Assembly (NCBI RefSeq): GCF_030463535.1
Contig: NC_132879.1
Span: 32,607,925 to 32,671,924 of the forward strand
Direction of reading: 5' to 3'
From: Salminus brasiliensis
Lineage: Eukaryota; Chordata; Actinopteri; Characiformes; Bryconidae
Length of the DNA stretch: 64,000 nt
Shown one piece after another: positions 2,722 to 63,540 of this stretch. The position numbers and the translations under genes are program-made. Each line of letters starts with the position of its first letter. Within the stretch, counting starts at the first letter, position 1. The notes under the pieces were generated by a model. That model did not search any database. It had not been told where the DNA came from and saw nothing but the letters and a program-made list of their open reading frames with translations.

Positions 2722-2850
2722 AGAACTCAAACATGAGTAAGAAAGCACAGAGAACCTAAACATGAATAAGAGACAGCCCAGAGAACCCAAACATGAGTAA
2801 GAAAGAGCACAGATAACACATACATGAATAAGACAGAACACAAACATAAG
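2722..2850. repeat. Minisatellite, about four copies of a ~30-bp unit
   Basis: The phrase ACATGAGTAAGAAAG or a close variant recurs at about 2,731, 2,760, 2,791 and 2,822, each followed by CACAGAGAAC-like sequence. A related stretch lies just before genes 2, 4 and 6 (about 15,890, 36,310 and 56,090). This block therefore marks roughly where the kinase array begins. Confidence 0.7.
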
Positions 2851-2879
2851 AACAAATGTGGAAATACATAATAAATAAA

Positions 2880-3339
2880 TGTATAAATAAATAAATGTGA
2901 AATTGTGGAAATACCAAAGTAAAGACGTGGGAATATGTGACTGATTTTACTGACTGCAGTGATTCATGTCCTAAAGTAACTAGACACCCTTTCTTCTGAA
3001 TAAATTCAGCTGCTTTACGGCATCTGACACAGCTGCATTATTTCCATATAAACGCACTGACCAATAGAACAGGACTCTCTACAGAAACTTTGTGGCGACA
3101 GACCCGGTTTCTAAATCTAGTCTCAGATCATACAGATCTGACGCTAAACTTTAGTATGAGTGAGGCCTTCATTCATCAGGCCTGGCTGTATTCAATCAGC
3201 TCAGTCTCATCACTGCAATTTGCTCCATGTGTTGCTAAGGTAACTAAAGGGGCATGGCACTGTACACAGCACTGTGTGTACATACAGTCCTATACAGCCA
3301 ATGAAGAGACTGACCTCAGTGACCCGAGTCCTCCTCCAT
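2880..3339 (+). promoter_or_regulatory. Conserved upstream block of kinase gene 1
   Basis: About 450 bases before the core promoter are shared by all six genes, beginning near GTGGAAATACCAAAG. The block includes two CCAAT motifs (GACCAATAGAAC at about 3,059 and GCCAATGAAGAG at about 3,297). In genes 3 and 5 the left part is replaced by a truncated LINE, so only the part from about GTGGAAATATGTGAC onward is common to every copy. No open reading frame of note. Confidence 0.55.
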
Positions 3340-3405
3340 TGTGAGGTCATGTCGATGACATCACAGAGCCTATAAAAAGGCAGGTTCCCCCTCACTGGCT
3401 CAGTT
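3340..3405 (+). promoter_or_regulatory. Core promoter of kinase gene 1: CRE-like site, TATA box, initiator
   Basis: TGACATCA at 3,356-3,363 differs by one base from the palindromic CRE (TGACGTCA) and lies in a small inverted repeat (GTCAT..ATGAC). TATAAAAA at 3,371-3,378 is followed about 31 bases later by an initiator-like CTCAGTTT (A at 3,402). The first ATG after that is 3,603, the start of the kinase. All six copies keep this arrangement. CRE sites near TATA boxes are typical of CREM-driven spermatid genes; testis use here is inferred. Confidence 0.7.
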
Positions 3406-3481
3406 TGGATTCAGCAGCTTGAGAGACGCTTGATTCCTGCGTTGACACTGACACCATTTAGCTGATTTAGCTGATTTTGTC

Positions 3482-3517
3482 TAGAACCATCTTATCTAGA
3501 ACCATAAAGAGGTTCTA
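3482..3517 (+). other. 5' leader hairpin motif (TAGAACC .. GGTTCTA)
   Basis: TAGAACC occurs at 3,482-3,488 and 3,497-3,503, and its exact reverse complement GGTTCTA lies at 3,511-3,517. The RNA could fold into a 7-bp stem with a 7-base loop, with the upstream TAGAACC as a competing arm. It is kept in both leader types across the six genes. Function unknown. Confidence 0.45.
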
Positions 3518-3602
3518 CATTTGCTTGGAATATACAGGGAACAGTCCTTACAACCTTCTTAACCTTCTGACTTTTATTTCCTCTTTCCATCTACAGGGGA
3601 AA

Positions 3603-5374
3603 ATGCAAACCAAAGAAGTCCTGAGGAGTTTGGGCTACGAGGTGGTGGATTTCATTGGTAAAGGGAGTTACGGTGAGGTTAAGCTGGCCACATCTCAAAG
3701 GCACTCCAACCATGTGGCCATCAAAATAATGCACCGCAGGCTGGCATCACATATTTTTGTATCTAAACTTCTGCCCCGGGAACTGGCCATTCTGAAAAGA
3801 GTAAAGCACCCTCATATTGTTCAGGTGCATGAAATCTTTGAGATGCCAAACGGACAGGTGTTTATTGTGATGGAGGCTGCCGCAATGGATCTTCAACAGA
3901 AGATCTGGGAGCTCGGCCGCATTCCCATTGGCCAAGCAAAAATGTGGTTCTCACAGCTGCTCAGCGCTGTGGCCTATCTACATCAGCAGGACATTGTCCA
4001 TCGTGACCTTAAATGTAAAAACGTTCTGCTGACTGCTAACGACCAAGTCAAATTAACCGACTTTGGTTTAGGCCGTTTTTCAAGGGGCTTTCCTGACTTA
4101 AGCAAGACCTATTATTGCACTCCCGAGTATGGTGCACCTGAGGTGCTTTTGGAAAAACCCTATGATCCAAAAAAAAGTGACGTGTGGAGTCTAGGTATTA
4201 TCTTTTACTCCATGGTCACCGGATCCACACCCTTCAAAGTTAACAGTTTGAAGAGTCTCCTACGTGTCCAGCGAGAACCCTTGGTGTTCCCACGTAGGAT
4301 CACAGTGGAGGAGCCCTGTCGGGCCTTCATATCTTATATGCTGCAGTACGACCCCTCCACTCGGCCATCTGTGACAGAGGTGGCACAGCACCCTTGGCTG
4401 CAGCCGAGGCAGGAACGGTAAGTAAACCACTGTGCAGGTATACATATATGAAGAACATTTTGAATGGGTCACTCAAAGTAAAGAGCTGTTTTGCAAATAG
4501 GTAACATACAATATTAGTTCACTAACGATAAGTACACTAACACATTGCTTCTGTACTGTCTCCAGGGTTGTTGGCAGGTTTGTGGTGGTGCCCGTTGAGG
4601 ATCTGTGTCCAGACGTCAACCCACTTGAAACGTCAGAGGAAGAGTCTCAGTCTTCCTTCTCTTTGAGCAGTAACATAGACAGTATTTCCTCTTCTGCCTC
4701 TAAAAATGGGCTGGTGTTCAGCACTCCTCAGTCGACAGAGGAAGAGCCTCCGTCTTCTTCTTTAAGCAGAGACGTAGACGTTCTCTCATCTCATGGTGTC
4801 AGATGCGAAACTCTGATGCCTGAGCAGAAAGACAACAGCAGTGGAGCTGGTGCAAGTCTAACTTGCCAAAGGGTAGAGGCTGTGGAGGAGCACTATGGCT
4901 GCGTTAGCTGTAGTCCTCTTTGTGCTGCTATTAAAAGGGCAGCTAATGCTTATGTCAAGGCACCAATTCTCAGAGCCTCCCGGTCACTCCGACGGAGGAT
5001 GAGGAAGTTATTCAGACTTAACTCTGTGGTCCATGACACCACCTCTATTTCCCAGCAGAGTGCTCCTCATTCTGCTTCCCCTTCAGAAGCTCCTGCTTGT
5101 TTGTGTTCTGAGCAGAGACTCAAGGATGTGACTGTAGATGTCCCTCTCCATGGGCTAGTGGTGGAGACAACACCTGTTCTCCCACAGCCCACAGTACTGA
5201 AAGGAACCAGGAGTCTGAGGTTCCCTAAATTTAAGGTATGTTAGGCAAATGTTGAGCGATCGTCACAGCCTCAGATTTTATACTTTAAATATTTGCTAGA
5301 AATGTTTCAGTTGATTCATATATGTCATTTTGTCTCGCCAACAGATCCTGAAAAAGACTATTCATCCATTGTAG
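3603..5374 (+). CDS. TSSK-like serine/threonine kinase, copy 1 (three coding exons, 504 aa)
   Basis: Coding exons are 3,603-4,417, 4,566-5,235 and 5,345-5,374, with GTAAGT..CAG and GTATGT..CAG introns. ATG 3,603 is the first AUG after the TATA box and has A at -3; an in-frame stop lies at 3,468. The kinase domain (residues about 12-266) is complete: GKGSYGEV glycine loop (19-26), VAIK lysine K41, helix-C E60, HRDLKCKN (D135, N140), DFG D153, activation-loop T169 in SKTYY, GAPE E180 and DVWSLG D193. FVSKLLPRELAIL and HRDLKC point to the TSSK family, whose members phosphorylate proteins in developing sperm. Residues 273-504 form a tail I cannot match to a known domain: acidic Ser-rich repeats (294-347), a Cys cluster (372-391) and a strongly basic stretch (394-422). 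Known TSSKs are about 270-370 residues, so this tail is unusual. Copy 1 lacks one Phe of the FF found in the other tails and ends ILKKTIHPL. Confidence 0.85.
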
Positions 5375-5389
5375 ACATCTAGCACGGCC

Positions 5390-5650
5390 CTGGTGATGAC
5401 ATACTACCTTTACACAATTTTTGGTCATTTATACGTTGTTCTGACCAGAGGAGGATGGGTCCCCCTAGTGAGTCTTGGTTCCTCCCAAGGTTTCTTCCTC
5501 CAGCTCTGAGGGAGTTTTTCCTTGCCACTGTCGCCTTTGGCTTGCTCACTTGGGGTTCATGTTGTATTTATTTATTTATATTTGTTCTATTTTCCGATTT
5601 CTGTAAAGCTGCGTTGCACCATCAGGTTGTAAAAAGCGACATACACATCA
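5390..5650 (+). mobile_element. L2-type LINE 3' tail downstream of gene 1
   Basis: The block contains GACCAGAGGAGGATGGGTCC, GGTTCCTCCCAAGGTTTCTT, GAGTTTTTCCTTGCCACTGT and, near its end, TGTAAAGCTGCGTTGCACC. I recognise these as the 3' end of a LINE family very common in fish. It starts about 20 bases after the kinase stop codon, so the messenger's 3' UTR probably runs into it. All six genes have it. I saw no AATAAA signal before about 6,788. Confidence 0.65.
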
Positions 5651-5784
5651 TTTGGAGTTGTTATGTAAGGGGTAGGAAGGACACTGTCTAAACTGTGTCC
5701 ATTAAGGGCAGTATAGCTCTGCACTCAGCTGAGGATATTGTTGGGTGGCTGATAGAACACTTTCTCTAGACATTAGGGATTGAG

Positions 5785-6350
5785 ATGCCTCTGTAATGTT
5801 GCATGGACCTCGGGAACAGTGCCTCTGGACTGGCAATCCAAGGTTGTGGTCCTCATTAAGAAAGCGAACCAGAGAGTGTGTGGAAACGTTTGAAGCTTCA
5901 CACCTCGGTTTCCCTCTAGAAAGTTTATGCCAGGGTAGTGCAAAGACGAGACTCAGGAGGAGAAATGCAGATTCTGTCCTGACCATGAAATGTTGGACCA
6001 GCTCTTCACTCTCTTTTGGATAGTTGCATGGGAGGCATGGGAGTTCAGCAGTCCTGTCTACATGTTTTGTGGACTTGAAGGCTCATGACCATGTTCTCTG
6101 AGACATCTTGTGAGAAGTGCTCTAGGTGCATGGGATGCAAGGGTCGGTGATGCGAGCTGTGCAGTCCTTGTACTCACTGAGTCAGAGCTGTGTCCATATT
6201 TTCAGCACTAAGTCAAGCTTGTTAAGTGTTGTCGTTGGTCTTTGTCAGGGCTGTGCCATGTGTCTGCTCCTGTTTGTGATATTCATAGACAGGATAGCAA
6301 GGCGTAGCCAGGGGCAGGATGGTCTACAGGGGCCTCCAATGCACACTTGA
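5785..6350 (+). mobile_element. Degenerate non-LTR reverse transcriptase fragment, unit 1
   Basis: Several frames together spell a decayed fish LINE reverse transcriptase. KVYARVVQRR with an upstream stop (about 5,920-5,950) corresponds to the usual LLSLPGKVYARVLERR block. RAVQSLYSLSQSCVHIFSTK followed by VGLCQGCAMCLLLFVIFIDR (6,150-6,300) corresponds to the QGCPLSPxLF block. Frameshifts and stops make it non-functional. The same fragment follows every kinase copy. Confidence 0.7.
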
Positions 6351-6487
6351 CTAGTTTGTAGCTAAGTGTATAGTGGTTGGTATGAGAATCAGCACCTTCA
6401 AGTCTGAGGCCACAGTGGTATCCCACTCACTTTTCACGACCCAGGACTTGTTAGAGGGATTGTATCTTATAGAATCTTATCTTAAGA

Positions 6488-6640
6488 ATTAAATAGGGGT
6501 GTGAATCTCTCTGTGTCAGGCGATTTGATTCAATTCTGATTTTTGAGGTCACGATTCAATTCAAAAACAATTTTCGATTCAGGAACCATTTTTCAATTCA
6601 AATGGTCTTTAAATTTGATTTAAATTAAGTGATTGACGAA
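6488..6640. repeat. GATTCAATTC-rich repeat, unit 1
   Basis: The stretch has repeated GATTCAATTC, GATTCAATTCAAAAAC, TTCAATTCAAATGG and similar words after TAGGGGTGTGAATCTC. This style of sequence is seen in short non-autonomous hAT-like elements of fish; the assignment is tentative. Copies follow all six genes. Confidence 0.4.
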
Positions 6641-6644
6641 GATG

Positions 6645-7185
6645 AAATGACACTGTTGTCATGGTGGGTCAGGCCAGACACAGAGGCATGAACACTCGCA
6701 GAGATGGGTGCAATGCAAGTACTTTAATAACTCAATAGAAAATCATACAAAGAGCGAACTAAAGCAAACAAAGTAGCAACTAACGGGAATAAAAAGGAAA
6801 ACAATGTAAAGTCGACAAACTAGAGGGCGAACACAAAGCACAACTTTGTGGGCTCTGGGAGCTGAGCTAGATGAGCAGGGCAGGGAACAGGGGGAACCAG
6901 CCGCAGAACCAAAAACGGCTAGGCCGACCAAACCAAATCTGACAACGCAGCGTGGAAAAGGGTCGCCTAGCTGGAGCGAGGGTCGTGGGTATAAGGTGGG
7001 AGTGAGCGAGAGCATCTCACTAAACACATGAACATGAAACACGACACTGAACCGACACAATGAACCAAACATGAACCAAACACACATGAACGTAACTGAA
7101 CCAGAACCGAGTCACTGAATAGATACAAGAACAGAAACATAACAAAAAGTCCTTAAGTGGGCGGCGGCTCTGAATCGCCGCATTC
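6645..7185. mobile_element. Unclassified interspersed repeat, unit 1
   Basis: A block from about GTTGTCATGGTGGGTCAGG to GGCGGCTCTGAATCGCCGC contains AAACACATGAACATGAAACA and CAATGAACCAAACATGAACC runs. It recurs after every gene. It shares phrases such as GGCAGTGCCTGGGGAAAC (seen in the unit-3 copy) with the insertions inside the L2 elements at 24.6 and 45.2 kb, so all belong to one repeat class. No transposase or reverse transcriptase motif is visible. Confidence 0.45.
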
Positions 7186-7304
7186 TTACTAGTAGAAAAT
7201 GGAGCATTTTGCTTTCTTATTTTGAAGTTTACTTTAGTCTGTTTATGTTCAAAATGGAAAATAAAAAATGTAGTTAATTATGTATTTCAGTGTATTGTGG
7301 TTAT

Positions 7305-7306
<2 letters not shown>

Positions 7307-7337
<31 letters not shown>
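7307..7337. repeat. (GT)n microsatellite, unit 1
   Basis: About 30 bases of GT dinucleotides. Shorter or interrupted alleles lie at the same place in the other units (about 20,455, 30,627, 40,865, 51,085 and 60,668). The surrounding 7,186-7,556 shows no gene. Confidence 0.9.
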
Positions 7338-7339
<2 letters not shown>

Positions 7340-7556
7340 TATAGCAAGGATATGTTCTTTGTTTAAACTCTGTCATTGATAAAGTGGAGATATACTTTTT
7401 GCATTATATATACAAAATTATTTTATATATATCACATATATCAACATCGTGAACCTAACCATACAGCTGTAGCCTATATGATATGGCTATGTAAAAGTGC
7501 TCTGTGGTTTTGCAGAATTCATGTGTCAATGGCATTGGGGCCCAGAAAATATGGTT

Positions 7557-8287
7557 TCAGAATCAGAATCAGAAATACTTTATTAATACTAGTAGTGAAA
7601 CTGCAGTTGCCATAGTTGCAGCGGCTTGTGTAAGAATAAACACTCTATAAAGTTTAAAACAAAAACAGAAAAAAAGGTTTATAAATGATATGATTAAATG
7701 GTATTTAGAGTATGAATATAGTTTTATGAATAAGTGGCAAAGTGACAATAGCTGTGATAATAAATATGGAACAGACCATATGAAACATTTTGAATTATTG
7801 CACCTCTGAGTTATTTCACAGATATTAAAATGAATTGCATTACTATTATTATTGCATATATGAACAGTATAATCAGAGAACTGCACAGATGAACCATAGT
7901 GTCACACATTGAGGGAGGAGTTATAGAGTTTGATGAGCACAGGTAAGAATGACCCCCTGTGGCGCTCTGTGGCGCATTTTGGTGGACTGAGTTTTGCACT
8001 GAATGTGCTCCTGTGTCTCAACACCGTGTTGTAAAGTGGGTGGGAGCCATCAGTGTTCTTAGCCCAGTGAAGTTTATTATCAGGACGACCTCCCAGATAT
8101 TTGTAGTTCTCCACAGTGTCCACACTGACCCCACTGACGGACACAAGGGTGCCTTGTCTCTTCTCAGGTCCACCAACAGTTCTTTGGTCTTTGTCACATT
8201 GAGATTCAGATGGTTTAGCTCACACCATGTGACAAAGTTCTTCATCCTCACCATATCCTCATCCTTATCACTCCTGTGAACGAGTGT

Positions 8288-8392: not shown

Positions 8393-8819
8393 TTTTAAGG
8401 GGCTACACTTGTCTTTGTTGGTTTCTTCAATAAAGGCAGGTTCTTTGGCAGTTGGGTTCTTTGCGTTCTTTCTCATTCAGTGGGTGAGAAACTAGTAACT
8501 TGGTGTTGAGTTGTTTTTAAATTTTTGCCCATAGTTACAATCACATTTTATTCTCAAAGGTTTCTTGCTTTGTGGTAGTAAGATTTCTGTAATGCATCCA
8601 GATTTTGTCGTCCATCGAAACACCGCCTTCAAAATGCAAAAATACCCATAATGCCTTTTTCTTTTGCTGTTCACAACATGCCATGGCTTTTAAGTGCTTC
8701 ACATTTTACTAATTGTGTTTTCTTGCTGCTATTTTCTTAGAGTGTTCTTGTACAATAATAGTATGTTGGTATAACATTTTTGAAAATAATTCAGAAATTA
8801 ATTGCAAATATAAATATAT

Positions 8820-9400
8820 TACCCGGCGAGGCCTGTGCCCCCTCGACACGCAGTACTTCAACAAGTTCAAACCAGGCCTCATCCACTTGGACTGAAACTG
8901 AAACTTCAGGTATGACTGATGAAGAAATCAAGTCAGATATCCTAGCCTCACTGAGGGAAGATATATCCAAAATAATAAGGCAAGAATTGGAGTGTGTGTT
9001 TACTGAAAATTTTAATGCTCTACAAAGTGAGTTGATGTGGTGGGAGGTCTGTTGACATGGTCTGACGAAGTGATTACTGACTGCTGAAACTTGCCTTAAA
9101 AGCCAAGTTGAAACCCTTAAAGAAAAGAATGATGATTAGAGGGCAGAATGAGAAGGGGGAATGTTTGAATAGTTGGCGGGGGGTCTTAACTGTGTCTTGT
9201 CACAGCACATGGACAGACAACCTGAATCGAAAGCCCCCCTCCCTAAAATGAGTAAGATGCTTAGACATCAATCTTTTGAACTGGGTCTTGTTGATTTGTT
9301 GAGAAGTAAATTCACAAGACACAGAGACTTTACACACTATTCATGTACAACTGCATCCTATTCCAGGATTGACTATTTTTGAACCCCCAAATTAGAGTTA
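8820..9400 (+). mobile_element. L1-like LINE fragment (ORF1 piece joined to endonuclease piece), unit 1
   Basis: At 8,910-9,040 the frame reads SDILASLREDISKIIRQELE, a coiled-coil-like ORF1 piece resembling fish L1. At 9,270-9,380 it reads FELGLVDLLRSKFTRHRDFT and then SYSRIDYF, the end of an L1-type apurinic endonuclease domain. The middle is deleted. The fragment interrupts a U4 satellite unit at the same place in all three blocks, so it was present before the dimers multiplied. Confidence 0.65.
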
Positions 9401-9732
9401 CATGGGGTAATAGACATTATGATACCTCTTATACTCTTTATTTAACTCACTTTTTTTTCTATTTCCTAATGCAAACTGGAAAAAGGAAAAAAATGCTATG
9501 TATGGAAACATTCTGTCTTATGACTTTAAAAAACTGAAAAAAAAGTAAGCTTCAATCTTTTGGTTTCTTCTGTATTTTTATCACAGATGTTTTGGCAGTT
9601 TGGTTTTAGGTTGTGTGGGCTTTCTGTTTAGGTTCAGCTTTTGAGCTTTGCGTTCTGTCTCATGCAGTGGGTGAGAAACTAGTAACTTGGTGGTGATTTG
9701 TTTTAAGGGTTCCTTGCTTTGCCGCCTTCACA

Positions 9733-9928
9733 ATGCAAAAATACCCATAATGCCTTTTCCTTTTGCTGTTTAAAACATGCCATGGCATTTAAGTGCTTCA
9801 TATTTGGATAATTGTGTTTTCTTGCATGTATTTGCTTAGAATGTTCTAGTACAATAATAGTATGTTTGTATAATGCAATTCATAATTCAGAAAGTAATTG
9901 TGATAAACTGGTTACCATTGTTGAAATC
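9733..9928 (+). promoter_or_regulatory. snRNA-type promoter elements of U4-like copy 1a
   Basis: ATGCAAAA (9,733-9,740) resembles the octamer and is followed directly by TACCCATAATGC, which fits the SPH/Staf (ZNF143) consensus. TTACCATTGTTGAAATC (9,912-9,928) sits 58 bases before the U4-like start, the usual place for a PSE. The octamer-SPH pair is the normal distal enhancer of vertebrate snRNA genes, about 240 bases upstream. Confidence 0.55.
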
Positions 9929-9969
9929 TGAAGTAAAGTAGGTGTACATATATACTTCTGAAAAGGGTC

Positions 9970-10130
9970 AGCGTTGTTTTTTTTTGTTTGTTTTTTTTGC
10001 AAAAGCATTATCAAAGCTGTTGAGTTTAATTCTGTGTGTGTTCATTACTGGTGAAAAGATCTACCCAATACCCCACTGTGATGATTTGAAATATAATCAA
10101 CCATGGCATTGATTTGTTTTTATACAGAAT
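9970..10130 (+). pseudogene. U4 snRNA-like copy 1a
   Basis: Blocks in U4 order: GCATTATCAAAGC (U4 has GCAGTATCGTAGC), GAGTTTAATTCTG, CTACCCAATACCCCAC, GATTTGAAATATAATC and CATGGCATT. A long T run expands the first 20 positions. TTTTAAGAATAAGCTTG after it resembles a 3' box. Confidence 0.6.
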
Positions 10131-10631
10131 TAAAAGTTTGTTTTAAGAATAAGCTTGAATTTTTTTTTCAGTATTTTCTGTGGCAGTCAAAGCAGTTTTT
10201 TTTGGCAGTTTGGTTTTAGATTGTGTGGCTAATGTGTTTAGTTTCAGCTTTTGAGCTTTGCTTTTCATCTTATCCAGTGGGATTAGAAACTTGGTGGAGA
10301 GTTATTTTAAGACTGGTTGAATTATTTTTACATTTTTCTGACCATAGTTACAATCACAGTCAAGGCACTTTTTGGCAGTTTGTTTTTAGGTTGTGTGTGC
10401 ATTATATTTATGTTCAGGTTTTGAGCTTTGTGTTTCATCTCATCAAGTGGGTAAGAAACTATTAACTTGGTGGTGAGTTGTTTTAAGACTGGTTTTATTG
10501 TTGGTTTTTTTTTTGTTTTTTTTAGCCCATGGTTACAAACACATTTTTTCCTCAAGGGACCCTTGCTTTGTTGTGGTAAGATTTACGTAATGTGTCCGGA
10601 TTTTGTTATCAATTGTAACGCCACCTTCACA

Positions 10632-10833
10632 ATGCAAAAATACCCATAATGCTTTTTTCTTTTGCTGTTTGCAACATCCCATGCCTTTCTTGTGCTTCAT
10701 ATCTTATTTATTGCTGCTATTTTCTTAGAATGTTCTTGAACAATAGTAGTATGTTGGTATAATGTAATTCAGAAAGTAATTCAGAAAGTAATTCAGAAAG
10801 TAATTGCAATAAACTGGTTCCATTCTTGAAATC
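10632..10833 (+). promoter_or_regulatory. snRNA-type promoter elements of U4-like copy 1b
   Basis: Octamer-like ATGCAAAA at 10,632-10,639 is followed by SPH-like TACCCATAATGC at 10,641-10,652. A PSE-like TTCCATTCTTGAAATC lies at 10,818-10,833. Relative to the U4-like start at 10,875 these are near -243 and -57, the spacing of a working vertebrate snRNA promoter. Confidence 0.6.
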
Positions 10834-10874
10834 CTCTGTAAAGTAGGTGTACATGTATAGTTCTAAGAAGGGTC

Positions 10875-11015
10875 AGCTTTCTTTTGCAGAGGCTGTGTGT
10901 AGTCTGTGAGGGTAATCTGAGGTATGGTAATACCTTGTTCAAAACTGTACCCAAAACTTTCCCAATCTTAATTAAAATATATAGTGCCATAGCAAATTGT
11001 GTTAGTTTTTTAATT
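10875..11015 (+). pseudogene. U4 snRNA-like copy 1b
   Basis: It begins AGCTTTCTTTTGCAGAGGC, close to the U4 5' end, and keeps TAATCTGAGG and CAAAACTGTACCCAAAAC. The 3' half is strongly diverged (the TTGAAATATAGTC block reads TTAAAATATATAGTG). Confidence 0.55.
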
Positions 11016-11413
11016 AATCTTGTTTTTTGGGGGGGGTTCTCAGGCTCTTTTTGCTGCAAGGCAGATTTTGTTGGTGGACTGGTTATAGATTGTGTAGGCA
11101 TTCTGTTTAGGTTCAGCTTTTGAGCTTTGTGTTTTATCTTATCCAGTGGGTAAGAAACTAGTAACTTGGTGGTGAGTTATTTGAAGACTGTTTTAATTGA
11201 TTTTTACATTTTTTTAAATTATCCATAAATGCAAAAATACCCATAATGTAAGTGCTTCATAATAAACTAATTGTGTTTTCTTATAATAATAATTATAAAA
11301 TAATAGTATGTTGGCAATTTGGAAAGTAATTCAGAAAGTAATTGTGATAAATTGGTTACCATTCTTGAAATCCTCAGTAAAGTAGGTATACATTTTTTGG
11401 GTTTTTTTTTTTT

Positions 11414-11548
11414 TTTTGCTTGTTTCTGTAGAGGCAATGTAATAGTTTGTGAGTTTAATCCAGTGTATGATCATTACTGTTTAAAATATTTACTCAATAC
11501 CCCAGCATGATGGTTTGAAATATAGTCAATCATGGCAATTGTATTTTA
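11414..11548 (+). pseudogene. U4 snRNA-like copy 1c
   Basis: It keeps GAGGCAATGTAATAG, GAGTTTAATCCAGTG, GATCATTACTG, CTCAATACCCCAGCATGATG, GTTTGAAATATAGTCAATC and CATGGCAATT. The octamer-SPH (11,229) and PSE-like (11,356) elements precede it, the former closer than usual because the spacer is shortened. Confidence 0.65.
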
Positions 11549-12210
11549 AATTTTATGTTAAGAATAACCTGGAATTATTTTTCAGTATTTTCTGTTGCAG
11601 TCAAAACAGTTTCTTTTTTTGGCAGTTTGGTTTTAGATTGTGTGGCCAATGTGCTTAGTTTCAGGTTTTGAGCTTTGCTTTTCATCTTATCCAGTGGGTA
11701 AGAAACTTGGTGGAGAGTTATTTTAAGACTGATTTAATTATTTTTTTAAATGTTTGTGCCCATAGTTACAATCACAGTCAAGGCAGTTTTTTGGCAGTTT
11801 GTTTTTAGGTTGTGTGTGCATTATATTTATGTTCAGGTTTTGAGCTTTGTGTTTTGTCTCATCTAGTGAGTAAGAAACTAGCAACTTGGTTGTGAGTTGT
11901 TTTAAGACTGGTTTCATTGTTTTATTATTATTATTATTATTATTTTTGCCCATAGTTACAAACATATTTTTTCCTCAAAGGTCCCTTGCTTTGTTGTGGT
12001 TTTCCTTTTGCTTTCTACGACATGCCATGGCTTTTTATTGCTTCATATTTTTCTAATTGTATTTTTTTGCTGCTAATTACTTAGAATTTTTCATATACAA
12101 CAATAGTAAGTTGGAACAACACACTTTGGAAAGTAGTTGAGAAAGTAATTGCTGTGTATATATATAGTGTGTATATATACATATATAGCTATATTAAGAA
12201 AACTCTGAGA

Positions 12211-12340
12211 AGGTGTTTATATAGAACCAATGTCATGGTTTATGAGATTACTTCAAGCCGTTGCTGTTTGTGGTTGAAAACCTTTGTTTTTTTGATTTGG
12301 AAATATATTCAGCCATGGAAATTTTTGTTGTTCTGTAATG
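12211..12340 (+). pseudogene. U4 snRNA-like copy 1d
   Basis: Recognisable blocks are CAATGTCATGGTTTATGAG, CGTTGCTGTTTGTGGTTGAA followed by AACC, GATTTGGAAATATATTCAGC and CCATGGAAATTTTTG. The CCCAATACCCC block is lost. Confidence 0.5.
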
Positions 12341-12600
12341 AGTCTTGAGTCTTTTGGTTTCGTCTCTCTTTTTTCTCACAGTCAAGGCAGTTTCTTGGCA
12401 ATTTGTTTTTAGGTTGTGTGGGTATTATGTTTAGGTTCAGCTTTTGAGCTTTGTGTTTTGTCTCATCCAGTGGGTGAGAAAATAGTAACTTGGTGGTGAG
12501 TTGTTTTAAGACAGGTTTTATTGTTTGTTTGTTTTTTTGTTTGTTTGTTTTTTTTACATGTGTAGTTCTACTACAGAGTCTGTTTTTTTTTTGTTTTGTT

Positions 12601-12732
12601 TTTTTTTGCAGAGGCTGTGTGTAGTTTGTAAAGATAAATTGAGACATGAAAATTTGTGGGGAAAACTTTGTCCAAAACTTTTTCAAAGTTAATTGAGATA
12701 TAGCATGCCATGGCACATTGTGTTAGTTTTTA
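12601..12732 (+). pseudogene. U4 snRNA-like copy 1e
   Basis: TTTTGCAGAGGCTGTGTGTAG opens the copy and GGAAAACTTTGTCCAAAAC lies mid-copy, followed by TTGAGATATAGCATGCCATG. It belongs to the same diverged subtype as copy 1b. Confidence 0.45.
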
Positions 12733-13192
12733 AACAGACTAGAATGATTGTGTTTAAATTAAGCTTGAGTTTTCGGGTTTCTTAGGCTCTTTTTGCTACG
12801 AGGTAGATTTTATTGGTGGATTGGTTATAGATCGTGTAGGCAAGTTCTGTTTAGGTTCAGCTTTTGAGCTTTGCATTTTATCTTATCCAGTGGGTAAGAA
12901 ACTAGTAACTTGGTGGTGAGTTATTTTAATTTTAATTTTGTTTTAATTGATTTTTACATTTTTAAAAATTACCCAGAAATGCAAAAATACCCATATTGAT
13001 TTTTCCTTTTGCCATGTCTTTAAAGTGCTACATAATAAAGTAATTGTGTTTTCTTATAATAATAATTATAAAATAATAGTATGTTGGTATAAGGCAATTT
13101 GGAAAATAATTCAGAAAGTAATTGTGATAAACTGGTTACCATTCTTGAAATCCTCAGAAAAGTAGGTGTACATGTTTGGTGTTTTTTTTTTT

Positions 13193-13345
13193 TTTGGTTG
13201 TTTCTGTAGAGACAATGTCATAGTTTGGGAGTTTAATCCAGTGCATGGTCATTACTGTTTAAAATATTTACTTAATACTCCACCATAACGGTTTGAAATA
13301 TAGTCCATCATGGCAATTTTTGTTTTTATAGAGACTCAAAAATTT
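13193..13345 (+). pseudogene. U4 snRNA-like copy 1f, Sm site retained
   Basis: One of the better copies: GAGACAATGTCATAG, GAGTTTAATCCAGTG, TACTTAATACTCCACCATAA, GTTTGAAATATAGTCCATC and GGCAATTTTTG (13,312-13,322), identical to the U4 Sm-binding region. A PSE-like TTACCATTCTTGAAATC starts at 13,136, 57 bases upstream. GTTAAGAATAAG follows as a 3'-box-like motif. Confidence 0.65.
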
Positions 13346-13702
13346 TTGTTAAGAATAAGTTTGAATTATTTTTTTTTTCAGTATTTTCTGTTGCAGTCAG
13401 TTTTCGTTGGTAGTTTGGTTTTAGATTGTGGGGCTAATGTGTTTAGTTTCAGCTTTTGAGCTTTGCTTTTCATTTTATCCAGTGGGTAAGAAACTTGGTG
13501 GAGAGTTATTTTAAGACTGGTTGAATTATTTTTAAAAAGTTTTGACCATAGTTACAATCACAGTCAACACAGTTTTTTGGCAGTTTGATTTTAGGTTGTG
13601 TGTGCATTATATTTATGTTCAGGATTTGAGTTTTGTGTTTTGTCTCATCCAGTGAGTAATAACTTTGTTTTGAGTTGTTTTAAGACTGGTTTTATTGTTG
13701 TT

Positions 13703-13733
<31 letters not shown>

Positions 13734-14175
13734 TAATTATTTTTTGTTTTTTTATTAAGCTTGTGTTTTTGGGTTTCTCAGGCTCTTTTTGCTTCAAGGC
13801 AGATTTTTTTGGTGGTTTGGTTATAGATTGTGTAGGCATTCTGTTTAGGTTCAGCTTTTGAGCTTTGCGTTTTATCTTATCCAGTGGGTAAAAAACTAGT
13901 AACTTGGTGGTGAGTTATTTTTAGACTGTTTTAATTGATTTTTACATTTTTTAAAATTACCCATAAATGCAAAAATACCCATAATGATTTTTCCGTTTGC
14001 CTTTTAAGTGCTTCATAATTTACTAATTGTGTTTTCTTATAATAATAATTATAAAATAATAGTATGTTGGTATAAGGCAATTTGGAAAGTAATTCAGAAA
14101 GTAATTGTGATAAACTGGTTACCATTCTTGAAATCTTCAGTAAAGTAGGTGTACAGTTTTGGTGCTTTTTTTCTT

Positions 14176-14318
14176 TGTTTTTCTCTGCAGAGGTAATGTC
14201 ATAGTTTGTGAGTTTATTCCAGTGTAGAATCATTATTGTTTAAATTATTTACTCAATACCCCACCATGAAGGTTTGAAATATAGTAAATCATGGCAATGT
14301 TTGTTTTTAAAAAGATTA
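14176..14318 (+). pseudogene. U4 snRNA-like copy 1g
   Basis: It keeps CTGCAGAGGTAATGTCATAG, GAGTTTATTCCAGTG, ACTCAATACCCCACCATGAA, GTTTGAAATATAGTAAATC and CATGGCAATG. The PSE-like block starts at 14,119. Confidence 0.6.
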
Positions 14319-14829
14319 AAATATTATGTTAAAAATAAGCTTGATGTTTTATTTCAATGTTTTCCGTTGCAGTCAAGGAAGTTTGGTTTTAGATTGTGTG
14401 GCCAATGTGTTTAGTTTCAGCTTCTGAGCTTTGCTTTTCTTCTTATCCAGTGACTAAGAAACTTGGTGGAGAGTTGTTTTAAGACTGGTTGAATTTATTT
14501 TTTTTTTTTCCCATAGTTGCAAACATATTTTTTCCTCAAAGGTCCCTTGCTTTGTTGTGGTAAGATTCCCGTAATTCATATAGATTTTGTTGTCAATTGT
14601 ATCCCCACCTTCACAATGCAAAAATACCCATAATGCTTTTTCCTTTTGCTTTCTACGACATGCCATGGCTTTTTATTGCTTCATATTTTCCTAATTGTAT
14701 TTTTTTGCTGCTAATTTCTTAGTTTTTCATATACAAAAATAGTAAGTTGGAATAACACAATTTGGAAAGTAGTTCAGAAAGTAATTGCAATAAACTGGTT
14801 ACCATTCTTGAAATCCTCAGTAAAGCAGG

Positions 14830-14876
14830 TATATATATATATTTATATATTTATATATATATATATATATATTTAT
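14830..14876. repeat. (AT)n tract in satellite block 1
   Basis: TATATA repeats with TTTATA interruptions replace the 5' half of a U4-like unit. Confidence 0.85.
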
Positions 14877-14945
14877 AGTTGAAAACCTTTGTATTTTTTT
14901 TACTTGGAAGTGTAATCAGCTGTGGTCATTCTTGTTATTCTGTAA
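14876..14945 (+). pseudogene. U4 snRNA-like fragment 1h (3' half)
   Basis: Only AGTTGAAAACCTTTG, ACTTGGAAGTGTAATCAGC and TGTGGTCATTC remain; the 5' half was lost next to an AT dinucleotide tract. Confidence 0.45.
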
Positions 14946-15487
14946 TGAGACTTGAGACTTTTGGTTTCTTCTCTCTTTTTTCTCACAGTCAAGGCAGTTT
15001 CTTTGCAATTTATTTTTAGGTTGTGTGGGCTTTCTGTTTAGGTTCAGCTTTTGAGCTTTGCGTTCTGTCTCATCCAGTGGGTGAGAAAATAGTAACTTGG
15101 TGGTGATTTGACTGGTTTTATTGATTTTTAAATTTTTGGCCCATAGTAACAAACACATTTTTCTCAAGGGTCCCTTGCTTTGTTGTGTTAAGATTCCGGC
15201 AATGCTTTTGGATTTATTTGTCAATCGTAACAGCAACTTAACAATGCAAAAATACCCACAATGCTTTTCCCTTTTGCTTTCTACGACATACCATGGGGTT
15301 TCAATGCTTCATATTTTACTAATTGTGTTTTCTTACTGCTCTTTTCTTATAATACAATATAGTACAGTACAATAGTAGTATGTTGGTATAATGCAATTCA
15401 GAAAGTAATTCAGAAAGTAATTGCAATAACCTGGTTACCATTCTTAAAATCCTCTGTAAAGTAGGTGTACATATATAGTTCTAAGTA

Positions 15488-15625
15488 GATTCTGTATTTT
15501 TGGCAATATTGTACAGTGTGAGTTTAATATGAGGTGTGATCGTTGCTGGTTAAAAATATTACACAATACCTTGCCAGAATGTTTTAAAATATAATCAGCC
15601 AAGACATATTTTACATAGTTTTTGC
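15488..15625 (+). pseudogene. U4 snRNA-like copy 1i
   Basis: It keeps TTGGCAATATTGTACAG, GAGTTTAATATGAGGTGTGA, CGTTGCTGGTTAAAAATATT, ACACAATACCTTGCCAG and AAAATATAATCAGCC. It is the last copy before kinase gene 2. Confidence 0.5.
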
Positions 15626-15885
15626 AGGGAATTGAATGTTTATGTGAAATGAAGTTTGTATGTTTGGTTTCTTCAGGCTATTTGTGCTGTTTTAGATTGT
15701 GTGGGCATTCTGTTTGGTGGTGAGTTGTTTTAAGACTGCTTTTATTCATTTCTTAATATTTTTGCCTATAGATACAATGAGATTTTTCTCATGGGGCCTT
15801 TGCTTTGTTATGATAAGATTCTCGCCTGGATGTTCTTGTCAATCGCAACACTGCCTTGACATTGCAAAAATAACCATACTTTTTC

Positions 15886-22545: not shown

Positions 22546-23010
22546 TGTGCTGTTTACAACATGCCACGGCTTTTAAGTGCTTCATATTTTACTAATTGTG
22601 TTTTCTTGCTGCAATTTTCTTAAAATGTCCTTGTACAATAGTAGTATGTGGGTATAACGCAATTCGGAAAGTAATTCAGAAAGTAATTGTGATAAACTGG
22701 TTACGACTCTTGAAATCTTCAGTAAAGTCGATGTACATATATAGTTCTGAGAAGGTCTGTATTATTTTGCAGAGGCAGTATCATAGCTTGTGAGTTTAAT
22801 CTGAGGTGTGATCATTGCTTGTTGAAAACTTTACCCACTATCCGACCAGGATGATTTGAAATATAGTCAACAATGGCCATTTTTTTGTTAGTGTTAGTTA
22901 AGAATAAGCTTGAATGTTTTTTCAGTGCTTTTTGTTGTAGTCAGGGTTTTTTGGCAGTTTGGTTTTAGATTGTGTGGGTATTAAGTTTACGTTCAGCTTT
23001 TTTCCACTTT
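22546..23010 (+). repeat. Isolated U4-satellite unit, unit 2
   Basis: One satellite unit truncated at its left, lacking the octamer-SPH element, and running from TGCTGTTTACAACATGCC through a PSE-like block (TTACGACTCTTGAAATC, 22,701-22,717), the U4-like body and the start of the next unit (TTGGCAGTTTGGTTTTAG). Confidence 0.65.
22761..22895 (+). ncRNA. U4 snRNA-like sequence, unit 2 (best-preserved type)
   Basis: The closest match to U4 in the window, in the correct order: GCAGAGGCAGTATCATAGC (U4: GCAGTGGCAGTATCGTAGC), TGAGTTTAATCTGAGG with GTGATCATTGCT (the 5' stem-loop), TTGAAAACTTTACCC (U6-pairing stem I region), TTGAAATATAGTC (exact) and TGGCCATTTTTTTG (Sm-like). GTTAAGAATAAGCTTG follows as a 3'-box-like motif. 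The PSE-like block is 60 bases upstream but there is no distal octamer-SPH. Differences from U4 are many; it could be a diverged variant or a pseudogene. Confidence 0.6.
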
Positions 23011-26000: not shown

Positions 26001-26136
26001 TTCTGGACTCAGACCCAATCATAGCACAGAGACAGCCTTAGTGACGATTACAAACAATCTCCTTCTTGCCTCTGATCGAGGCTACGTATCTTTATTAGCC
26101 TTACTCGACCTCAGTGCAGCCTTCGGTACAATAGTA
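23050..26136 (+). mobile_element. L2-like LINE, internally interrupted and 3'-truncated, unit 2
   Basis: At 23,280-23,365 the frame reads VCTECELVHSLVVKVEQLEV (ORF1-like). At 24,150-24,290 DIFCLTESWIRPDQY and SGRGGE mark the endonuclease. At 24,430-24,530 HTLDLVLTLGVSTDHLNILP is the end of that domain. At 25,686-26,130 [20 protein letters not shown] and [11 protein letters not shown] are reverse transcriptase up to motif A. A foreign repeat (24,570-25,335) splits it, stops are present, and it ends abruptly inside the RT where the kinase gene 3 upstream block begins. Confidence 0.75.
24570..25335. mobile_element. Repeat inserted in the L2-like LINE, unit 2
   Basis: Begins near CTGTCATGACTGGCTAGGTC and ends near GCAGGCCTGACATCGCC. 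It contains GGCAGTGCCTGGGGAAAC and ACATGAACATGAATATCAAC, linking it to the unclassified repeat downstream of each kinase. No coding domain recognised. Confidence 0.45.
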
Positions 26137-33188: not shown

Positions 33189-33350
33189 AGCGTTGTTTTT
33201 TTTTGTTTGTTTTGCAAAAGCATTATCAAAGCTGTTGAGTTTAATTCTGTGAGTGTTCATTACTGGCAAAAAGATCTACCCAATACCCCACCATGATGAT
33301 TTGAAATATAATAAACCATGGCATTGATTTGTTTTTATACAGAATTAAAA
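33189..33350 (+). pseudogene. U4 snRNA-like copy 2a
   Basis: Counterpart of 1a: GCATTATCAAAGC, CTACCCAATACCCCACCATG, GATTTGAAATATAATAAACC. The PSE-like block is about 58 bases upstream, and TTTTAAGAATAAGCTTG follows. Confidence 0.6.
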
Positions 33351-33869: not shown

Positions 33870-33995
33870 AGCTTTCTTTTGCAGAGGCTTTATATAATCT
33901 GTGAGAGTAATCTGAGGTATGGTAATACCTTGTTCAAAACCTTCCCACCCTTAATTGAAATATATTCTGTCATGGCAAATTGTGTTCGTTTTTTG
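33870..33995 (+). pseudogene. U4 snRNA-like copy 2b
   Basis: Counterpart of 1b: AGCTTTCTTTTGCAGAGGC, TAATCTGAGG, then a deletion in the middle; the Sm region is unrecognisable. Confidence 0.5.
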
Positions 33996-34399
33996 GGGGG
34001 TTTTTCAGGCTCTTTTTGCTGCAAGGTAGATTTTATTGGTGGTTTGGTTATAGATTGTGTAGGCATTTTGTTTAGGTTCAGCTTTTGAGCTTTGCGTTTT
34101 ATCTTATCCAGTGGGTAAAAAACTAGTAACTTGGTGGTGAGTTACTTGAAGACTGTTTTAATTGAATTTTACATTTTTTAAAATGATCCATAAATGCAAA
34201 AATACCCATAATGATTTTTTTCCTTCTGCCATGCCTTTTAAGTGCTTCATAATAAACTAATTGTGTTTTCTTATAATAATAATTATAAAATAATAGTATG
34301 TTGGTACAAGGCAATTTGGAAAGTAATTCAGAAAGTAAATGTGATAAATTGGTTACCGTTCTTGAAATCCTGAGTAAAGTAGGTGAACATTTTTTGTGG

Positions 34400-34545
34400 G
34401 TTTTTTTTTCTGCAAAGGCAATGTCATAGTTTTTGAGTTTAATCCAGTGCATGGTCATTACTGTTTAAAATATTTACTCAATACCCCATCATGATGGTTT
34501 GAAATATAGTCCATCATGGCAATTTGTGTTTTTATAGAGACTCAA
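34400..34545 (+). pseudogene. U4 snRNA-like copy 2c
   Basis: CTGCAAAGGCAATGTCATAG, GAGTTTAATCCAGTG, CTCAATACCCCATCATGATG, GTTTGAAATATAGTCCATC and CATGGCAATTTG. Confidence 0.6.
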
Positions 34546-35260: not shown

Positions 35261-35284
35261 TTTTTAAGAAGATTTAGTCTTTTT

Positions 35285-35400
35285 TTACTTAGAACCAATG
35301 TCATGGTTTATGAGATTAATTCAAGGCGTTGCTATTTGTGGTTGAAAACTTTTGGTTTTTTGACTTGGAAATATAATCAGCCATGGCAATTTTTGTTATT
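35285..35400 (+). pseudogene. U4 snRNA-like copy 2d
   Basis: CCAATGTCATGGTTTATGAG, CGTTGCTATTTGTGGTTGAA then AACT, GACTTGGAAATATAATCAGC and GGCAATTTTTG, an intact Sm-like site. Confidence 0.55.
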
Positions 35401-35874
35401 CTGTAATGAGACTTGAGTCTTTTGGTTTCGTCTCTCTTTTTTCTCACAGTCAAGGCAGTTTCTTGGCAATTTGTTTTTAGCTTGTGTGGGTATTATGTTT
35501 AGGTTCAGCTTTTGAGCTTTGCGTTCTGTCTCATCCAGTGGGTGAGAAAATAGTAACTTGGTGGTGATTTGGCTGGTTTTATTGATTTTAAATTTTTGGC
35601 CCATAGTAACAAACACATTTTTCTCAAGGGTCCCGTGCTTTGTTGTGTTAAGATTCCGGTAACGCTTTTGGATTTTTTTGTCAATCGGAACAGCGACTTC
35701 ACAATGCAAAAATACCCACAATGCTTTTCCCTTTTGCTTTCTACGACATGCCATGGCTTTTAAGTGCTTCATATTTTACTAACTGTTTTCTTGCTGCAAT
35801 TGTCTTAAAATGTTCTTGTACAATAGTAGTATGTTGGTATAACGCAATTCCTAAAAAGTCTAAGTAGATATAAG

Positions 35875-36005
35875 TTCTGTATTTTTGGCAATATTGTAGA
35901 GTGTAAATTTAATATGAGGTGTGATCATTGCTGGTTAAAAATATTACACAATACTTTGCCAGCATGTTTGGAAATATAGTCAGCCAAGACGTATTTTACA
36001 TAGTT
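35875..36005 (+). pseudogene. U4 snRNA-like copy 2e
   Basis: Counterpart of 1i: TTGGCAATATTGTAGAG, AATATGAGGTGTGATCATTG, ACACAATACTTTGCCAGC and TGGAAATATAGTCAGCC. Confidence 0.5.
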
Positions 36006-43240: not shown

Positions 43241-43700
43241 CTGTTTACAACATGCCACGGCTTTTAAGTGCTTCATATTTTACTAATAGTGTTTTCTTGC
43301 TGCAATTTTCTTAAAATGTCCTTGTACAATAGTAGTATGTTGGTATAACGCAATTCGGAAAGTAATTCAGAAAGTAATTGTGATAAACTGGTTACGACTC
43401 TTGAAATCTTCAGTAAAGTCGATGTACATATATAGTTCTGAGAAGGTCTGTATTATTTTGCAGAGGCAGTATCATAGCTTGTGAGTTTAATCTGAGGTGT
43501 GATCATTGCTTGTTGAAAACTTTACCCACTATCCGACCAGGATGATTTGAAATATAGTCAACTATGGCCATTTTTTTGTTAGTGTTAGTTAAGAATAAGC
43601 TTGAATGTTTTTTTCAGTGCTTTTTGTTGTAGTCAGTTTGGTTTTAGATTGTGTGGGTATTAAGTTTACGTTCAGCTTTTTTCCACTTTCTAGCACTTAT
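43241..43700 (+). repeat. Isolated U4-satellite unit, unit 4
   Basis: Counterpart of 22,546-23,010, with a PSE-like block at 43,392-43,408. Confidence 0.65.
43452..43586 (+). ncRNA. U4 snRNA-like sequence, unit 4
   Basis: Same well-preserved type as at 22,761: GCAGAGGCAGTATCATAGC, TTGAAAACTTTACCC and TTGAAATATAGTC. It has CAACTATGGCC where unit 2 has CAACAATGGCC. No distal octamer-SPH element. Confidence 0.6.
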
Positions 43701-53657: not shown

Positions 53658-53815
53658 AGCATTGTTTTGTTTTTTTTTGTTTTTTTTGTAAAAGCATTAT
53701 CAAAGCTGTTGAGTTTAATTCTGTGTGTGTTCATTACTGGTAAAAAGATCTACCCAATACCCCACCATGCTGATTTGAAATATAATCAACCATGGCATTG
53801 TTTTCTTTTTATACA
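53658..53815 (+). pseudogene. U4 snRNA-like copy 3a
   Basis: Counterpart of 1a and 2a: GCATTATCAAAGC, CTACCCAATACCCCACCATG, GATTTGAAATATAATCAACC. Confidence 0.6.
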
Positions 53816-54308
53816 GAATTAAAAGATTGTTTTAAGAATAAGCTTGAATTTTGTTTCAGTATTATCTGTTGCAGTCAAGACAATTTGTTTGGCAGTAGGT
53901 TCAGCTTTGTGTTTCATCTCATCAAGTGGGTAAGAGACTATTAACTTGGTGGTGAGTTGTTTTAAGACTGTTTTTATTGTTTTTTTTTAATTTTTGCCCA
54001 TAGTTACAAACACATTTTTTCCTCAAGGGACCCTTGCTTTGTTGTGTTAAGATTCACGTAATGTGTCCGGATTTTGTTATCATTTGTAACGCCACCTTCA
54101 CAATGCAAAAATACCCATAATGCTTTTTCCTTTTGCTGTTTGCAACATCCCATGCCTTTCTTGTGCTTCATATTTTACTAATTGTGTTTTATTGCTGTTA
54201 TTTTCTTAAAATGTTCTTGTACAATAGTAGTATGTTGGTATAATGCAATTATACCATTCTTGAAATCCTCTGTAAAGTAGGTGTACATGTATAGTTCTAA
54301 GAAAAGCA

Positions 54309-54435
54309 AGCTTTCTTTTGCAGCGGCTTTATATAATCTGTGAGAGTAATCTGAGGTATGGTAATACCTTGTTCAAAACTTTACCCAAAACCTTCCCACC
54401 CTTAATTGAAATATATTGTGTCATGGCAAATTGTG
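54309..54435 (+). pseudogene. U4 snRNA-like copy 3b
   Basis: Counterpart of 1b and 2b: AGCTTTCTTTTGCAGCGGC, TAATCTGAGG, CAAAACTTTACCCAAAACC. Confidence 0.5.
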
Positions 54436-54849
54436 TTAGTTTTTTGAGGGGTTTCTCAGGCTCTTTTTGCTGCAAGGTAGATTTTATTGGTGGTTTGGTT
54501 ATAGATTGTGTAGGCATTTTGTTTAGGTTCAGCTTTTGAGCTTTGCGTTTTATCTTATCCAGTGGGTAAGAAACCAGTAACTTGGTGGTGAGTTACTTGA
54601 AGACTGTTTTAATTGAATTTTACATTTTTTAAAATGATCCATGAATGCAAAAATACCCATAATGATTTTCCTCTTCGGCCATGCCTTTTAAGTGCTTCAT
54701 AATAAACTAATTGTGTTTTCTTATAATAATAATTATAAAATAATAGTATGTTGGTACAAGGCAATTTGGAAAGTAATTCAGAAAGTAATTGTGATAAATT
54801 GGTTACCATTCTTGAAATCCTGAGTAAAGTAGGTGAACATTTTTTGTGG

Positions 54850-54990
54850 GTTTTTTTTCTGCAAAGGCAATGTCATAGTTTTTGAGTTTAATCCAGTGCA
54901 TGGTCATTACTGTTTAAAATATTTACTCAATACCCCACCATGATGGTTTGAAATATAGTCCATCATGGCAATTTGTGTTTTTATAGAGAC
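54850..54990 (+). pseudogene. U4 snRNA-like copy 3c
   Basis: CTGCAAAGGCAATGTCATAG, CTCAATACCCCACCATGATG, GTTTGAAATATAGTCCATC; AATCTATGTTAAGAATAAGC follows as a 3'-box-like motif. Confidence 0.6.
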
Positions 54991-63094: not shown

Positions 63095-63540
63095 TTACAA
63101 CATGCCACGGCTTTTAAGTGCTTCATATTTTACTAACTGTGTTTTCTTGCTGCAATTTTCTTAAAATGTCCTTGTACAATAGTAGTATGTTGGTATAACG
63201 CAATTCGGAAAGTAATTCAGAAAGTAATTGTGATAAACTGGTTACGACTCTTGAAATCTTCAGTAAAGTCGATGTACATATATAGTTCTGAGAAGGTCTG
63301 TATTATTTTGCAGAGGCAGTATCATAGCTTGTGAGTTTAATCTGAGGTGTGATCATTGCTTGTTGAAAACTTTACCCACTATCCGACCAGGATGATTTGA
63401 AATATAGTCAACTATGGCCATTTTTTTGTTAGTGTTAGTTAAGAATAAGCTTGAATGTTTTTTTCAGTGCTTTTTGTTGTAGTCAGTTTGGTTTTAGATT
63501 GTGTGGGTATTAAGTTTACGTTCAGCTTTTTTCCACTTTC
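63095..63540 (+). repeat. Isolated U4-satellite unit, unit 6
   Basis: Counterpart of 22,546-23,010, with a PSE-like block at 63,242-63,258. Confidence 0.65.
63302..63436 (+). ncRNA. U4 snRNA-like sequence, unit 6
   Basis: Same well-preserved type as at 22,761 and 43,452, with GCAGAGGCAGTATCATAGC, TTGAAAACTTTACCC and TTGAAATATAGTC. GTTAAGAATAAGCTTG follows. Confidence 0.6.

Follow-up and report, generated by a model that had tools for sequence, protein, structure and literature searches.

The window, a 64,000-nucleotide stretch of the Salminus brasiliensis genome (1.07 Gb in 103 contigs), covers positions 32607925-32671924 of contig NC_132879.1 (C2) and holds repeated, mostly decayed copies of the gene for the U4 small nuclear RNA (snRNA), interleaved with genes for a TSSK6-like kinase. 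Self-comparison reveals a kinase-bearing segment, about 5 kb long and present six times. Three U4 blocks (8.4-15.9, 31-36 and 52-56 kb) alternate with single U4 copies of a separate type, F, between these kinase segments. Positions given without a contig are those of the window.

The U4 similarity of the blocks is real. With the genome's own U4 (locus L001) as sole query, an nhmmer search of the three blocks returned 19 matches at E<=10, all on the + strand and 14 of them at E<1e-4; the same query found none in 20 dinucleotide-shuffled sets of these blocks. This confirms the first-pass annotation, which had recognized U4-like words in U4 order between 8.4 and 15.9 kb, and places the similarity clearly above background. 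Comparison with the Rfam U4 model (RF00015) agreed in part. At a permissive threshold it returned more U4 matches across the full model, all on the + strand and with E values of 0.0044 to 3.5 in the first block, but the block units stayed below the gathering score of 46 bits (maximum 42.8, at 54853; within 8.4-15.9 kb, 30.6 at 10878, 27.5 at 13198, 24.4 at 15496 and 19.7 at 9991). Only the F-type copies (22761, 43452 and 63302) exceed this score, with 59.8-61.4 bits; lying outside the blocks first described, these three better copies at 22.8, 43.5 and 63.3 kb had been missed.

Each unit contains about 140 bases of U4, and the remainder is promoter and spacer. In the main block U4 starts at 9991, 10878, 11420, 12213, 12600, 13196, 14179 and 15490. 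The tandem arrangement on one strand therefore stands, whereas the spacing, proposed to be kept at up to about 0.65 kb, is irregular, with steps of 387 to 1311 bases. The widest gap holds a unit with a distal sequence element (DSE, 14616) and a proximal sequence element (PSE, 14797) and scarcely any U4 (E 8.2 at 14906). Tandem Repeats Finder, run with periods of up to 500, reported only short-period repeats in this block. The two further blocks, placed earlier at 31.7-36.3 and 52.1-56.1 kb, do consist of the same units, but self-comparison shows them multiplied by a larger, kinase-bearing duplication. The description as an snRNA gene turned into a decaying satellite thus survives as to U4 derivation and decay. 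In place of the long, homogeneous series of near-identical head-to-tail monomers that a satellite implies, there are eight bodies at irregular steps in the main block, unit types whose U4 bodies are 55-74% alike, and whole genes with promoters. Behind some type A and C units the spacer is doubled at 170-172 bases (10199/10369, 11616/11788, 13404/13574). One stretch inside the main block (8820-9550) is by eye unlike a U4 unit and looks like an insertion, perhaps of a long interspersed nuclear element (LINE).

Table 1. Positions in the window of U4-like bodies, promoter-like words and kinase-bearing units
Feature	Position	Strand	Basis or remark
U4-like body, type A	9991..10126	+	Rfam and nhmmer
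U4-like body, type B	10878..11017	+	Rfam (30.6 bits) and nhmmer
U4-like body, type C	11420..11560	+	nhmmer
U4-like body, type D, weak	12213..12343	+	E 0.026 with real U4 alone
U4-like body, type B, weak	12600..12738	+	E 0.042 with real U4 alone
U4-like body, type C, exact Sm site	13198..13334	+	Rfam and nhmmer
U4-like body, type C	14179..14319	+	nhmmer
U4-like body, type E	15496..15619	+	Rfam and nhmmer
U4-like body, type A	33206..33343	+	nhmmer
U4-like body, type B	33873..34010	+	Rfam and nhmmer
U4-like body, type C	34404..34540	+	Rfam (40.1 bits) and nhmmer
U4-like body, type D, exact Sm site	35281..35411	+	Rfam and nhmmer
U4-like body, type E	35873..35995	+	Rfam and nhmmer
U4-like body, type A	53680..53818	+	Rfam and nhmmer
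U4-like body, type B	54312..54451	+	Rfam and nhmmer
U4-like body, type C	54853..54989	+	Rfam (42.8 bits) and nhmmer
U4-like body, type F	22761..22903	+	Rfam, above gathering score; DSE not found by scan
U4-like body, type F	43452..43594	+	Rfam, above gathering score; DSE not found by scan
U4-like body, type F	63302..63444	+	Rfam, above gathering score; DSE not found by scan
DSE-like 21-mer (octamer with one mismatch and SPH/ZNF143 core)	9733..9753	+	Word scan
Further DSE-like 21-mers	8634, 10632, 11229, 12979, 13967, 14616, 15244, weakly 15862		Present in the other two blocks too
PSE-like 20-mer	13134..13153	+	Word scan, <=5 mismatches
Further PSE-like 20-mers	9910, 10815, 11354, 14117, 14797, 15433, 22699, 33129, 33810, 34351, 35170, 43390, 53598, 54249, 54801, 55648, 63240	+	
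Kinase-bearing unit (about 5 kb) of the higher-order repeat, copy 1 of 6	2838..8037	+	Self-comparison
TSSK6-like kinase open reading frame, copy 1 of 6	3471..4418	+	Others start at 16671, 26674, 37078, 47319, 56844

Alignment of the regions around the 19 U4 bodies of the window and three from a second locus at C2:12.97 Mb (c units) shows that homology extends past the RNA into the upstream region. There, a PSE-like word, GGTTACCATTCTTGAAATCC, lies about 60 bases upstream in many units (18 matches on the + strand and none on the - strand at <=5 mismatches), and a DSE-like word, ATGCAAAAATACCCATAATGC, lies farther upstream (22 matches on the + strand, one weak match on the - strand). The latter comprises an octamer (one mismatch) and, behind it, an SPH/ZNF143 core, both labelled by words that we take to represent these motifs. 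A DSE made up of an octamer and a ZNF143 site (PMC3499247) and a conserved CCCA in SPH (PMC3282657) have both been described.

Ten U2 loci (of 46 scored) and three U4 loci of the same genome served as the promoter reference. ACCR occurs at -59 to -61 in 12 of these 13 loci, L036 being without it; since the 13 represent about five distinct promoters, this corresponds to 4 of about 5. In the units it stands at -58 to -62 in 6 of 17, is displaced (-49, -53, -73) in three and was not found at -75 to -45 in eight, with c9716 counted among these through a scan fault. The shifts and losses have visible reasons, namely a T-rich insertion in A9991 and A53680, the loss of one base in B10878 or a TA repeat in D35281, and in the three F copies ACG replaces ACC. 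Farther out, the octamer word with one mismatch is found in 12 of 17 units and the SPH word in nine. The SPH core, which lies at -217 and -220 in two of the three real U4 loci, falls at -232 to -248 in all three type A units, two of three type B, one type E and one c unit, and elsewhere at -198 (B54312) and -283 (type D). Type C units have the octamer word and no SPH word, and neither was found in type F. A 3'-box-like word, defined from the window copies, appears nine times at or behind the body ends. The gene parts share one order and strand, and in part of the units they also take the positions of an snRNA promoter, with a PSE near -60 and a DSE of octamer and SPH/ZNF143 near -220. Because DSE- and PSE-like blocks lie upstream in the same order and on the same strand wherever they are retained, as they are in most units, the repeated unit is a whole U4 gene, including the parts of an RNA polymerase II (Pol II) snRNA promoter.

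The RNA bodies themselves have diverged strongly. Identity to real U4 (L001) is 71.4-77.1% at the c locus and 70.9-71.6% in type F, compared with 62-64% in type A, 58-60% in B, 61-68% in C, 58-63% in D and 59-62% in E, and G+C has dropped from 0.48 in real U4 to 0.28-0.39. The 10 CpG sites of real U4, followed through 22 units, give 220 cells, of which 8 are still CG, 74 have become TG, 64 CA and 14 TA, with 41 other states and 19 gaps. Both GA words of the kink-turn (k-turn) are kept in 7 of the 19 window copies, the exact U6-pairing stem I word in 4 and the exact Sm word in 3; none keeps all three jointly. The units would now mostly be pseudogenes of U4.

The upstream stretch has changed far less. 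Eight units were compared, one per type and two from C2:12.97 Mb; the PSE-less units 12213, 12600 and 35873 lie outside this set. Identity among them is 0.864 (bootstrap 0.827-0.899) from -125 to -30 and 0.669 (0.628-0.714) in the U4 body, with 0.702 in the distal spacer (-190 to -131) and 0.50 just downstream. In a partitioned tree, whose weakly supported topology (40-87) was not used, the relative rates are 0.44 for the promoter, 1.35 for U4 and 1.18 for the distal spacer. The promoter stretch is therefore about three times slower to change than the RNA body, and separate rates improve the log-likelihood by 28.8 for two parameters. Permutation of columns reached the promoter-U4 difference in 0 of 20000 trials and the promoter-distal difference in 1, whereas the distal-U4 difference was reached in 3497 of 20000, so that the body is conserved no differently from the distal spacer. 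Because the permutations separate the promoter from both and not the body from the distal spacer, the U4 body drifts like spacer, unlike the promoter stretch.

The same excess is seen in 27 of 27 unit pairs, which are not independent and 12 of which span loci 20 Mb apart. It is present in A/T columns (0.916 versus 0.740 for U4 and 0.764 for the distal spacer; 0 of 20000 permutations in either comparison) and in G/C columns (0.761 versus 0.558 and 0.551; 4 and 59 of 20000). It also persists when columns with a CpG in any aligned unit are masked, a mask that takes in sites still CpG in some unit and not those formerly CpG. The baseline identity of the 3' spacer is 0.75 over 16 copies and 0.71 over six. 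The DSE 21-mer is 0.905 identical over 10 copies and its 40-base flanks 0.52 and 0.51, although the 21-mer was picked by eye and the ungapped comparison of the flanks depresses their value. The slow change of the promoter may stem from use, from reduced mutation or from gene conversion acting locally.

Across the genome, the unit DNA matches three places: this array (C2:32.6-32.87 Mb), C2:12.974-12.976 Mb on the opposite strand, and a 39-base stretch on C6. A less decayed unit from C2:12.97 Mb used as query recovers the same two main sites (best 40 of 184 candidates); in these searches only the best candidates were scored and very common words were skipped. Within that scope the unit DNA did not look like a dispersed repeat of this genome, and the known transposon that the first-pass annotation had named as a competing outcome did not emerge. 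No kinase was detected by tblastn in the 20 kb around C2:12.97 Mb. Near those units, L030:3489-3588 is about 79% identical to a stretch 3' of the kinase in the kinase unit (5443-5545 and its copies), which may point to a shared history or to a common repeat. The 9.9 kb preceding the window gave no match to the window at E 1e-5.

The true U4 supply is most likely a separate array with a 2.58-kb period at C2:38.66-38.79 Mb, about 6 Mb from the window array. It shares U4 homology with the window array and differs from it by its scores of 121-128 bits and its steps, about 2578 bases or multiples thereof. Over C2:38.64-38.86 Mb, 42 U4 copies of 121-130 bits were scored (of 56551 first-look candidates), most of them at such steps. 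Shared flanks were considered and rejected, as L003, the one real-array unit compared, matches the window solely within the U4 body. L001 and L003 match each other over 165 bases (93%), beginning at the U4 start and continuing some 20 bases beyond the U4 end; upstream, no significant match was found. A U2-like array at C29:8319754-8733232, with many copies about 6.6 kb apart at about 130 bits (190-199 for the best U2 loci), is possibly a similar, diverging snRNA array.

The amplified kinase noted earlier beside the U4 blocks is borne out and extends well past the window. It belongs to the Pkinase family, with TSSK6 as nearest solved structure (E 1.2e-85). Twenty-three TSSK6-like copies occupy C2:32611395-32873890 (about 262 kb), 21 of them free of stops. 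The six window copies have pooled proportions of synonymous (pS) and nonsynonymous (pN) differences of 0.0359 and 0.0055, a ratio of 0.153. Genome-wide, 126 TSSK6-like matches on many contigs were scored out of 1109 first-look candidates, with groups on C1, C2, C7, C8, C11, C12, C16, C18, C26 and others. Behind each kinase reading frame lies another of 247-248 amino acids (4501-5241 and five matching), of which the one tested had no Pfam match, and GGTAAG near the kinase end suggests a spliced C-terminal exon. A reverse-transcriptase fragment (RVT_1, E 7.7e-8) lies at 41474-41923 on the - strand. The stretch at about 23500-26100, next to an F copy, resembles a LINE by eye, although the sole reading frame tested in it (25614-26021) had no Pfam match; a related piece adjoins the C2:12.97 Mb units.

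It is likely that the blocks represent a second-lineage U4 gene array, mostly decayed, which was multiplied inside the kinase repeat. The origin of the array from U4 genes is well supported, and the blocks are most likely passengers today despite the slow promoter stretch; that the promoters have retained a function is no more than possible. The ancestral unit would have been a whole Pol II snRNA gene, with a DSE near -235, a PSE near -60, a U4 of about 140 bases and a spacer. Such units may have begun as a working second U4 locus that was later relieved by the main U4 array. To judge from the lost sites, most bodies would then have lost U4 function and drifted, with methylation as a probable source of the observed C-to-T change and CpG loss. 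A kinase-bearing segment of about 10-20 kb, whose repeated structure is evident, would have taken in the array and been multiplied by unequal exchange. The outcome would be a region of about 262 kb in which U4 blocks recur between TSSK6-like genes, with C2:12.97 Mb as a small, somewhat less decayed remnant of the array.

Several observations weigh against this account. The stretch from -125 to -30 is more conserved than expected of a plain passenger, and the PSE core is exactly placed in just 6 of 17 units. The three F copies pass the Rfam gathering cut-off and, once the Sm word is relaxed to A, five to seven T and G, retain the Sm site together with k-turn and stem I. Of five measures of stem pairing, three exceed nearly all shuffled alignments, namely the share of paired cells (73.3%, reached in 3 of 500 shuffles), the cells with changes on both sides (29, in 0 of 500) and the score (0.303, in 0 of 500). 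The two stricter measures, the number of pairs with both sides changed (14, reached in 44 of 500) and that of further pair types (41, in 68 of 500), are not clearly above shuffles, and related sequences can exceed shuffles in such a test without structure. Because of this excess, past selection on RNA shape is possible.

The slow promoter bears most directly on a reading in which the bodies are dead and the DSE and PSE would be used for germ-cell transcription, or as SNAPc/OCT1/ZNF143 sites that separate or regulate the TSSK6-like genes. The identity and rate differences between promoter and body favour it, as do their recurrence in every pair, in both column classes and after CpG masking, and the contrast between the DSE 21-mer and its flanks. 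Yet the conserved stretch is broader than a PSE, the DSE comparison used ungapped flanks and an eye-chosen word, the F units have no DSE and carry ACG for ACC, the PSE-less units stand outside the comparison and formerly-CpG sites were unmasked. We therefore hold this reading to be possible and clearly the less probable one. Its stronger form, in which a dead snRNA array became an array of selected snRNA promoters, acting as repeated transcription or boundary elements in a testis-type kinase cluster, seems to us slightly more doubtful again. That the bodies are divergent functional U4 variants, for example a germ-line set with the F copies as its most plausible members, is unlikely. The Rfam scores of the F copies, their k-turn, stem I and loosened Sm word, and the stem pairing argue for it; on the other side, no copy keeps all three exact words, the F copies have no DSE, an altered PSE core and only 1 of 4 scorable terminal-stem pairs formed, the body changes as quickly as spacer does, and CpG is nearly gone.

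Retroposed snRNA-derived copies are common in vertebrates, and this would favour reverse-transcribed U4 pseudogenes or a U4-headed short interspersed nuclear element (SINE) turned tandem. Such an origin is nonetheless disfavoured, because the units include an upstream DSE and PSE that a transcript would not carry; the unit DNA is, in addition, found at two main sites on one contig. We regard it as very improbable, and a transposon or SINE was rejected on the same grounds, the promoter being included and the copies, among the best candidates scored, not dispersed. Finally, the failure of any unit within the three blocks to attain the Rfam gathering score could suggest chance U4 words in an AT-rich tandem repeat of other origin. 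Against this stand the 19 matches to real U4 as sole query with none in the shuffled sets, their single strand, the near full length of many and the snRNA promoter parts upstream, and chance was rejected as next to impossible.

U2 and U4 small nuclear DNA has reportedly been mapped in Parodontidae fishes, and the U4B enhancer is said to contain an octamer and SPH. The units have the parts and order of the vertebrate Pol II snRNA promoter, described as a DSE with octamer and ZNF143 site and a SNAPc-bound PSE (PMC3499247), at nearly the same distances; they differ in that their octamer has one mismatch and the RNA downstream is decayed. In Plectorhinchus, a U2-U5 cluster consists of tandem snRNA genes with PSE and 3' box, and that report discusses concerted and birth-and-death evolution of tandem snRNA genes in fishes (PMC3464664). 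The clones are described there as rather homogeneous, with no variants or pseudogenes (PMC3464664), whereas here most copies have decayed and sit inside a higher-order repeat of the kinase. In zebrafish, U1 and U6 have maternal-specific genes located in a heterochromatic region, while the species' two U4 sequences on the chromosome in question are classed as somatic (PMC11075544). The tomato satellite reported as derived from ribosomal DNA (rDNA; PMC2679016) is likewise a tandem repeat related to an RNA-gene locus; its source is rDNA and not an snRNA gene. In the open-licence literature searched, no description was found of a decayed U4 array within or beside a TSSK6-like kinase repeat in which promoters outlast the RNA.

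Annotation pipelines may count the three F copies as U4 genes because they score above the Rfam cut-off. In the real U4 genes (L001, L003) the RNA is kept and the promoter is free to change, and the decayed array shows the reverse. If confirmed in relatives, this would indicate that selection on an snRNA promoter can be separated from selection on its RNA, here beside an amplified TSSK6-like family.

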